Below, in pieces: positions 26,450 to 51,969 of a stretch of DNA of 64,000 nucleotides. Under the pieces are notes generated by a model. That model did not search any database and was not told where the DNA came from. It worked only from the letters and a program-made list of their open reading frames with translations. The position numbers and the translations under genes are program-made. Within the stretch, counting starts at the first letter, position 1; each line of letters begins with the position of its first letter. This DNA comes from Halorubrum salsamenti (lineage in GTDB: Archaea > Halobacteriota > Halobacteria > Halobacteriales > Haloferacaceae): contig NZ_VCNL01000004.1 of the NCBI RefSeq assembly GCF_007671685.1, forward strand, positions 124,001 to 188,000, given 5' to 3'.

Positions 26450-26546
26450 GGAGTGTTGCTGTCGGAATCCGACCTTGTGAGTCGCCGCTGACGACGGGGT
26501 ATTTAAACAGCGATGAGCGACAGCGACGATCGCTTATAAATAGCTG
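26450..26546 (+). repeat. Dispersed intergenic repeat, copy B (about 97 bp)
   Basis: Begins ggagtgttgctgtcgg right after the helicase stop, passes gtatttaaacagcgatgagcg, and ends gatcgcttataaatagctg. It shares this block order with copies at 6227 (minus), 31095 and 55622. The terminal TTATAAA string is positioned like a TATA box for the structured element that follows. Confidence 0.8.
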
Positions 26547-26798
26547 TGCGGTGGCGCGCGCCTCCGAGTGGCCGGTAGGCCACGAGGAGCGCCGCGTGAG
26601 GGAGTCGGTCGCCCGGAGCAACGCGGAGGGCGACCGACGAGGCTGGGGAGGCGTGAGGTGCTGTGCTGTGCGGGGTGGGACTCAAAGGGGCAGCCGCGAG
26701 GACGAAGACGGGCGGCGCAAGGACCGCAGGAGTGAACGGAGTGAGTGACGAGGACCGCAGCGAGGCCATCAAGTCCTCGCGGCTGGGGCTTTGGAGGT
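26547..26798 (+). repeat. Larger structured repeat, copy 1 (candidate non-coding RNA or palindromic element)
   Basis: Shares the left block gcggtggcgcgcgcctccgag and the right block tcctcgcggctggggctt (ending near 26798) with the element at 36834-36970. It contains a hairpin gtggcc-ggta-ggccac at 26568-26583 and a long-range 13-bp perfect pairing between 26690-26702 and 26773-26785. The TATA-like box at 26533-26538 sits about 27 bases before the tccgagtgg block. No protein frame with start signals covers it. Confidence 0.65.
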
Positions 26799-26816
26799 GT
26801 TCACCGTCGATCTAGT

Positions 26817-26906
26817 GCCAGTAATCGTTTATAAACGAGCGACTGTGGATTTGGTTGCCTTCACCGTCAATCCGGAATCTCTCATTTATAAGCGATCGAT
26901 CGGAAC
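26817..26906 (-). repeat. Two partial arms of the dispersed repeat
   Basis: The strings cgtttataaacgagcgactg (near 26829-26848) and catttataagcgatcgat (near 26882-26899) resemble the TTTATAAGC-ended arm of the dispersed repeat in the opposite orientation. They look like truncated copies flanking the larger element. The remaining sequence to 27031 shows no gene. Confidence 0.5.
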
Positions 26907-27031
26907 TCCGGAGTCGTTCACCACGCTAGCAACCAGAGACACCCGATCTCGATCGCTCACGACACCCGTTCCACATCCGTAATAAACCCCCGCTCCCGCC
27001 GCTTTTCACCCATACCGCGGCCACCCGTCGT

Positions 27032-36770: not shown

Positions 36771-37082
36771 TGGCGGTCCGTGGTGGCGGTCGGATAAATA
36801 GGTGGGCGCCTCGGCGATCGCTTATAACTGAATGTGCGGTCGGCGCGCGCCTCCGAGTGGCCGCCATCGGCGGCCGCGAGGAGCGCGAACGGGACCACGA
36901 ACGTCGTTCCTGCTCGCTTCGCTGCGCGGGCTGCGACGTTCGGCGGTCCTCGCGGCTGGGGCTTTGGAGGCCGTCTCCGCCGCTCCGCCATCAACAGCTT
37001 ATAAGCGGGCCTCTGATGGGCTCTCGACTCCCACTGATACCTAAAAATCCGAAACCGCGGCTCGTCGAGACGCGCCGACCGC
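36771..37082. other. 312-base intergenic region with the second large repeat
   Basis: Between the AlaX gene start and the dodecin stop. It contains the larger structured element (36834-36970), a TATA-like cttata at 36821-36826 and a partial repeat arm acagcttataagcggg near 36994-37009. No protein-coding frame is credible. Confidence 0.65.
36834..36970 (+). repeat. Larger structured repeat, copy 2 (candidate non-coding RNA or palindromic element)
   Basis: Left block gcggtcggcgcgcgcctccg and right block tcctcgcggctggggctt match copy 1 at 26547-26798, but the middle is shorter and different. Its hairpin at 36857-36877 has 9-bp arms (gtggccgcc and ggcggccgc, one G-U pair) where copy 1 has gtggcc/ggccac: different bases, same fold. 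The TATA-like cttata at 36821-36826 lies about 27 bases before the ctccgagtgg block, the same offset as in copy 1. Confidence 0.65.
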
Positions 37083-51507: not shown

Positions 51508-51969
51508 ATGGGTTCAACCGGCACGGTCGCGGGACGGGTACGAGACGGGGTGGTTCAGTGGCTCGAACGCGTGTTCTTCGGGGGCGCGGAGATCTCGCTG
51601 CTGTCGTCGCCCGCGTTCGCCGCGGTGCTCGTCCTCCAGACGCGCTACCCCGACGCGGCCCCGATCGCCGGACTCCTCGCGATCGGGTTCGGGAGCGTCG
51701 CGATCGCGCTGTTCCGCGCGAAGGTCCTCGACGTCGGGGCGTGGCCGCGGCGCGGCGAACTGGCGACCCTCCCCCTGCGAGTCGGCTACTTCAGCGCCCT
51801 CTTCCTCCTCTCGACGGTCGGAGTCGCGGCGGCGGCGACGGCGGCCGGATCGCTGTGGTTCGCCCTGCTCGGCGGGGTCGTCCAACCCCTCGGCCTCGCG
51901 GCGTTCCCCCGCGCCTACCGCGCCGTCCACGGCGAACCGCTCCAGCGCACGCCCGGGGTGGAGCTGTGA
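51508..51969 (+). CDS. Integral membrane protein, function unknown
   Basis: About 153 residues with four transmembrane helices (about 30-45, 53-72, 86-112 and 115-135) and an amphipathic N-terminus. No family recognised. The GTG of the next gene overlaps its TGA, so the two are translationally coupled. ATG 51508 is used; an in-frame GTG at 51499 is equally possible. Divergent from the sugar transporter operon. Confidence 0.72.
   Translation: MGSTGTVAGRVRDGVVQWLERVFFGGAEISLLSSPAFAAVLVLQTRYPDAAPIAGLLAIGFGSVAIALFRAKVLDVGAWPRRGELATLPLRVGYFSALFLLSTVGVAAAATAAGSLWFALLGGVVQPLGLAAFPRAYRAVHGEPLQRTPGVEL

Follow-up and report, generated by a model that had tools for sequence, protein, structure and literature searches.

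The repetitive extragenic palindromic sequences and bacterial interspersed mosaic elements (REP/BIME) of enterobacteria and pseudomonads are palindromes scattered through intergenic regions in many copies, which accumulate between convergent genes and seldom lie between divergent ones, while SINE-type retroelements (short interspersed nuclear elements) are high-copy RNAs with their own promoter and with truncated copies. Structured RNAs tied to mobile DNA are known from IS110 (bridge RNA) and TnpB (omega RNA; archaeal examples in PMC12558985), and haloarchaea such as Haloquadratum carry miniature inverted-repeat transposable elements (MITEs) and other non-autonomous DDE transposons (PMC3119063). 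Here we describe an element in a 64,000-nt stretch of Halorubrum salsamenti DNA on contig NZ_VCNL01000004.1, called the window below, whose positions serve as coordinates unless a contig is named. With a probability of roughly 0.6, we consider it a transcribed, non-autonomous dispersed element under selection as RNA, belonging to an order-wide haloarchaeal family and possibly having a REP/BIME-like boundary role at gene 3' ends.

Like REP/BIME sequences, the element occurs as dispersed intergenic palindromic copies that are rich between convergent and poor between divergent genes, with inverted pairs in some genomes; it differs in being several times longer, in having multiple covarying domains and, in Halorubrum, a promoter, and in lacking an obligatory Y1 transposase. 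Young Halorubrum copies lie within inverted repeats between unrelated flanks in the manner of MITEs, whereas the interior is an RNA conserved across the order and most copies have no recognizable ends. A structured RNA tied to mobile DNA also recalls the bridge and omega RNAs, but the element is not generally found beside a transposase gene and IS110 is absent from its own genome. With SINEs it shares a high-copy, promoter-bearing RNA and truncated copies, but its promoter is external and no reverse transcriptase was found in the 24 genomes checked. These copies may outnumber most other structured-RNA loci in haloarchaea, but had no match in Rfam 15 or the open-access literature. Their analysis yields a working covariance model and testable transcription starts, as well as a natural experiment in the exchange of palindromic stems among genomic copies.

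Two copies in the window and an order-wide family

The two copies in the window comprise the following features:

26548..26797, + strand: full-length structured RNA element (match to positions 1-253 of covariance model R1, 217.8 bits)
26500..26507, + strand: upstream AT-rich box TATTTAAA, recurring near -47 in Halorubrum copies
26534..26541, + strand: TATA box TTATAAAT, the predicted promoter of the RNA (TATA-like box at the same place in 69 of 130 copies)
26556..26597, + strand: 5' domain with closing stem and first hairpin (GTGGCC/GGCCAC), helices 1 and 2 of the consensus
26604..26638, + strand: second hairpin GTCGGTCGCC/GGCGACCGAC, hypervariable among copies
26641..26658, + strand: conserved G-rich linker GGCTGGGGAGGCGTGAGG (alignment A1)
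26673..26797, + strand: core, made up of GGGTGGGACTCAAAGGGGC, a long variable arm and GGGGCTTTGGAGG; the part common to the whole order
36822..36827, + strand: TATA box of the second copy
36836..36970, + strand: truncated derivative, with the 5' hairpin and 3' block retained and an unrelated stem in between

The original prediction had described two copies with common end blocks and different middles, at 26547-26798 and 36834-36970. Both copies exist at these locations, with bounds corrected to 26548-26797 and 36836-36970, and the 3' block GGCTGGGGCTTTGGAGG is exact in each (26781-26797 and 36954-36970; two matches vs 0.09 expected). A further block, CGCGCCTCCGAGTGG, is exact at 26557 and 36846, and is not rarer than chance once three mismatches are allowed. 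The middles do differ, as the second copy has lost its second hairpin together with the larger part of the core and carries the unrelated stem, and model R1 matches this copy at positions 12-46 only (E 0.003). The first hairpin, predicted to covary, pairs in both copies (6 bp in the full copy, 9 bp in the second). The two differ chiefly by an extension, together with a single U-A to U-G change, and this does not amount to covariation; at the level of the family, 8 of the 10 pairs in this hairpin are changed on both sides in an alignment of 60 copies.

With at most two mismatches allowed, a search of this genome for the 3' block gave 123 matches vs 2 for the reversed pattern, and nhmmer gave 61 matches vs 0 on the reversed sequence, which rules out chance. 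On contig C1 (949 kb) a profile search located 37 separate copies, from which we extrapolate to about 140 copies genome-wide. All 22 congeneric genomes first searched were positive. Named matches to the 3' block were mostly from Halorubrum, and the few in unrelated bacteria look like chance hits on a 17-base pattern. The search through haloarchaeal genomes that the original prediction proposed extended the family much further: matches to model R1, many of them full-length (E 1e-15 to 1e-24), occurred in 175 of 243 Halobacteriales genomes and in 56 of 77 genera. No match was found in sampled genomes of the phylum outside Halobacteriales, nor in several genomes of the same family, so the model is not merely responding to G+C content. 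Occurrences of the core motif (one mismatch) ranged from 0 to 168 per genome, and the signature in other genera was GGGTGGGACTGAAAGGGGC-arm-GGGGCTTTC; loci L315-L334 were picked by part of the core, and its conservation there is partly a selection effect. A phage collection gave no match and a plasmid collection three weak records, so plasmids and viruses are not the main carriers of the element. The RNA module matched no described insertion sequence, no Rfam 15 family scored above its gathering score, and the open-access literature, searched by topic and by motif, held no description, though one in a subscription journal is possible. Within Rfam 15 and the open-access literature we thus found no prior description of the family.

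Fold, covariation and strand-specific selection

Alignment A1 comprises the 60 full-length copies on which model R1 is based. In its consensus, a 5' domain of closing stem plus hairpin is followed by the second hairpin, then by a G-rich linker and a long arm, which CAAAG/CTTTG closes beside invariant G-tracts. Changes on both sides were observed in 32 of 52 pairs, and 97.5% of cells were paired. None of 500 shuffles reached any of five measures, and sliding the structure dropped pairing to 31-43%; the cells count sequences rather than events, and the shuffles ignore relatedness. Among 24 matches from other genera, in an alignment fitted to the model, 43 of the 52 pairs were changed on both sides and 93.6% of cells were paired, with compensatory changes of their own such as GGAAG/CTTCC and GACAG/CTGTC. 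What the order as a whole has conserved is the fold and not the sequence. The covariation asked of a larger family in the original prediction is accordingly very strong.

The second hairpin aligned poorly in A1 because it is hypervariable, with 138 different forms among 179 copies. A relative (G005) carries the same element at the window locus between closely similar flanks, with the first hairpin and the distal arm replaced by other palindromes, and in rows L094, L129 and L210 of A1 the distal arm is seemingly inverted. From such comparisons we infer that hairpins may be exchanged by copy-to-copy conversion or template switching. Element copies L063, L093 and L241 contain smaller nested palindromes, CGCCGGCGGC..GCCGCCGGC and GTGGCGCGTAGCGCCAC. 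In G232 (L326, L327, L330, L332), G102, G076 and G253, core elements were observed as inverted pairs forming long palindromes; the pairs in G232 lie head to head with 35-50 bp between them, those in G253 tail to tail.

Since whole-hairpin exchange could by itself mimic covariation, a test for strand specificity was important. Non-Watson-Crick combinations at paired positions of the read strand were G·T in 284 cases vs A·C in 18, with 219 vs 15 in pairs dominated by G-C and 82 vs 12 in other genera, while unpaired positions changed at similar rates (C>T 0.047, G>A 0.029). A symmetric DNA structure predicts equal numbers, so the excess of G·T on one strand only argues for selection on the RNA fold, though single-stranded DNA also fits this test alone. 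Judged from the sequences, the RNA would be about 120 nt (core only) to about 250 nt (full form) long.

Four G-tracts of three or more were kept in 104 of 110 Halorubrum copies and 45 of 54 other copies, and a quadruplex is therefore possible, if unproven. One could imagine an order-specific haloarchaeal RNA system, in which a quadruplex-capable, duplex-anchored core acts in trans with a conserved protein, to move the element or in a multi-copy cellular function. Its core would read GGG-N-GGG ... GGGG-[arm]-GGGG, closed by the covarying GAAAG/CUUUC helix, and the element would move without reverse transcriptase, IS110 or Y1 transposase. We hold this to be doubtful; if it were true that spread needs the RNA, the element would depend on RNA while lacking the usual enzymes.

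Spread within Halorubrum

Five related copies with unrelated flanks share sequence out to the inverted ends GATCGATAGCGGGAGT...ACTCCCGCTATCGATC, and 19 of 20 matches to the GATCGATAGCGGGAGT end on contig C1 adjoin elements. These ends bound a young Halorubrum subfamily only, from which we conclude that the module spread there as MITE-like cargo; the original suggestion of a non-autonomous mobile element is borne out to this extent. Some copies carry outer termini like GGCTCTGTTGAAATCCT, which we take to resemble IS6-type ends; the same kind of termini delimits several unrelated cargo genes. One cargo cassette with similar outer termini is flanked by a perfect 8-bp target duplication, AAACGATC. 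The cassettes with these termini on contig C1 held cargo genes, none of which was identified as a transposase. Of 30 Halorubrum genomes, about half carry the element at the window locus, always in the same orientation, and the remainder have a short spacer or other genes. A comparison between species for exact pre-insertion sites found only diverged spacers, and a loose scan for inverted ends gave mostly noise and was not used. Outside Halorubrum, mobility is presumed.

These ends raise the question of whether the element is a plain MITE, a non-autonomous DNA transposon with passive interior palindromes whose covariation is only apparent and arises from whole-hairpin exchange. The inverted ends of the young subfamily, the IS6-like termini with their 8-bp duplication on cargo cassettes, the swapping of whole hairpins and the many second-hairpin alleles all suit this explanation. 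Passive palindromes would not, however, give a roughly 15-fold excess of G·T over A·C confined to pairs, and the RNA core is common to 56 genera while the ends are seen in Halorubrum only. We therefore consider a plain MITE unlikely.

Three further observations concern such ends. A transposon-like end at window position ~55611 (+ strand) was matched with five mismatches and has no adjoining element. Single-gene cassettes with inverted GGCTCTGTTGAAATCC termini and no recognized transposase lie on contig C1 of G000 at 296130-296728, 637433-638089 and 785409-795134 (L184, L201, L209), one of them with a perfect 8-bp duplication. The flanks of two neighboring cassettes, TCGGCAAC and GTTGCCGA, are reverse complements, as after an inversion.

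Promoter, genomic placement and proposed role

A TATA-like box at -22 to -8 of the module was observed in 69 of 130 Halorubrum copies vs 29 of 260 control windows, and another AT-rich box lies near -47 (the haloarchaeal consensus for the TATA box and transcription factor B recognition element is given in PMC4983044). In the window, TTATAA is found at 26534-26539 and 36822-36827, with centers about 25.5 and 26.5 bases 5' of CTCCGAG. The originally predicted spacing of about 27 bases thus holds approximately for both copies, but only about half of the Halorubrum copies have the box. Together with the strand-specific compensatory pairing, this fixed spacing lends support to the predicted structured RNA. 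Transcription, which we infer, probably begins from the element's own TATA promoter in Halorubrum, and in the window the RNA start is expected near 26560-26563, about 12-14 bases into the GCGGTGGCG block.

Further boxes lie 3' of both copies:

26798..26914, + strand: two degenerate repeat units 3' of the full element, with a TATA-like box in each (26828-26836, 26885-26893)
36998..37005, + strand: TATA-like box 3' of the second copy

The downstream units are about 57 bp long and repeat the TATA box plus the 3' block. We read them as putative tandem copies whose RNA was deleted, because a deletion intermediate exists (L024). On contig C1 of G000 at ~531929 (- strand), a transposon-like end is followed by the two promoter boxes and no RNA module; this is either a relative that has no RNA or the outcome of a deletion between TATA repeats.

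Of 113 Halorubrum copies, 111 were intergenic according to a gene caller of our own making. Convergent gene pairs flanked 44 of 96 copies vs 27 of 317 element-free spacers, and divergent pairs 6 of 96 vs 108 of 317; contig C1 alone gave a similar picture. In G147 all 14 copies were intergenic and 11 of these lay behind a co-directional gene, which fits a general role in the 3' untranslated region. Halorubrum tandem pairs do not fit it, having 22 copies in sense and 24 in antisense, and with no orientation preference there such a function is not general. A canonical intrinsic terminator was also rejected, as no U-run follows the element and T4 is rarer than in control spacers (5 of 110 vs 38 of 323).

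The favored reading would explain this placement as follows. In Halorubrum, non-autonomous transposons bounded by inverted repeats would have carried the unit along as a passenger, while selection maintained its RNA fold (5' hairpins, G-rich core, long arm) and single hairpins were swapped wholesale among copies. It would be a commensal repeat whose presence at gene 3' ends is tolerated, as with bacterial REP/BIME elements, and its folded, G-tract-rich RNA could form a transcript boundary between convergent genes, blocking read-through or exonucleases. This last function, taken on its own, is proposed tentatively; if it is true that the host is served, the element would be an archaeal counterpart of bacterial REP elements working as RNA. 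Several points weigh against the reading as a whole. No copy was detected in 68 of the 243 Halobacteriales genomes, around half of the Halorubrum copies have no TATA box where one would be expected, and visual inspection of the copies read in G147 and G232 revealed none. The even orientation in tandem pairs and the scarcity of T4 count in the same direction. The single target-site duplication seen was at a cargo cassette, with none at an RNA copy, and selection against insertion into promoters may be all that lies behind the convergent bias.

The REP-like placement, together with the inverted pairs in some genomes, could alternatively point to a REP-like element moved by a single-strand-specific Y1 transposase (of REP-associated tyrosine transposase, RAYT, or IS200/IS605 type), with the fold acting as single-stranded DNA; selection on one strand would also fit top-strand hairpins of this kind. 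No Y1 transposase was found in five many-copy genomes (G015, G149, G275, G253, G075), and the TATA box at a fixed place and the inverted transposon-like ends also argue against this, so that we regard it as improbable. Were the element a bridge or guide RNA serving in trans for an RNA-guided transposase of the IS110 or TnpB type, a structured RNA tied to mobile DNA would be accounted for, and an IS110-like gene lies near one copy (L296). This is very improbable as judged from IS110, which is absent from 21 of 24 genomes, the window's own among them; no variable guide loop was seen. Least probable is a SINE-like retroelement whose RNA is copied by reverse transcriptase in trans, which the high-copy, promoter-bearing structured RNA, the tandem 3' repeat units and the truncated copies would suit, but which is disfavored by the external promoter and by the absence of RVT_1 proteins (0 of 24 genomes, with 3 of 14 control genomes positive).

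Elsewhere in the window, ARAGORN predicted a 96-base tRNA-Arg (TCG) at 51543-51638, which is unusually long and possibly contains an intron.
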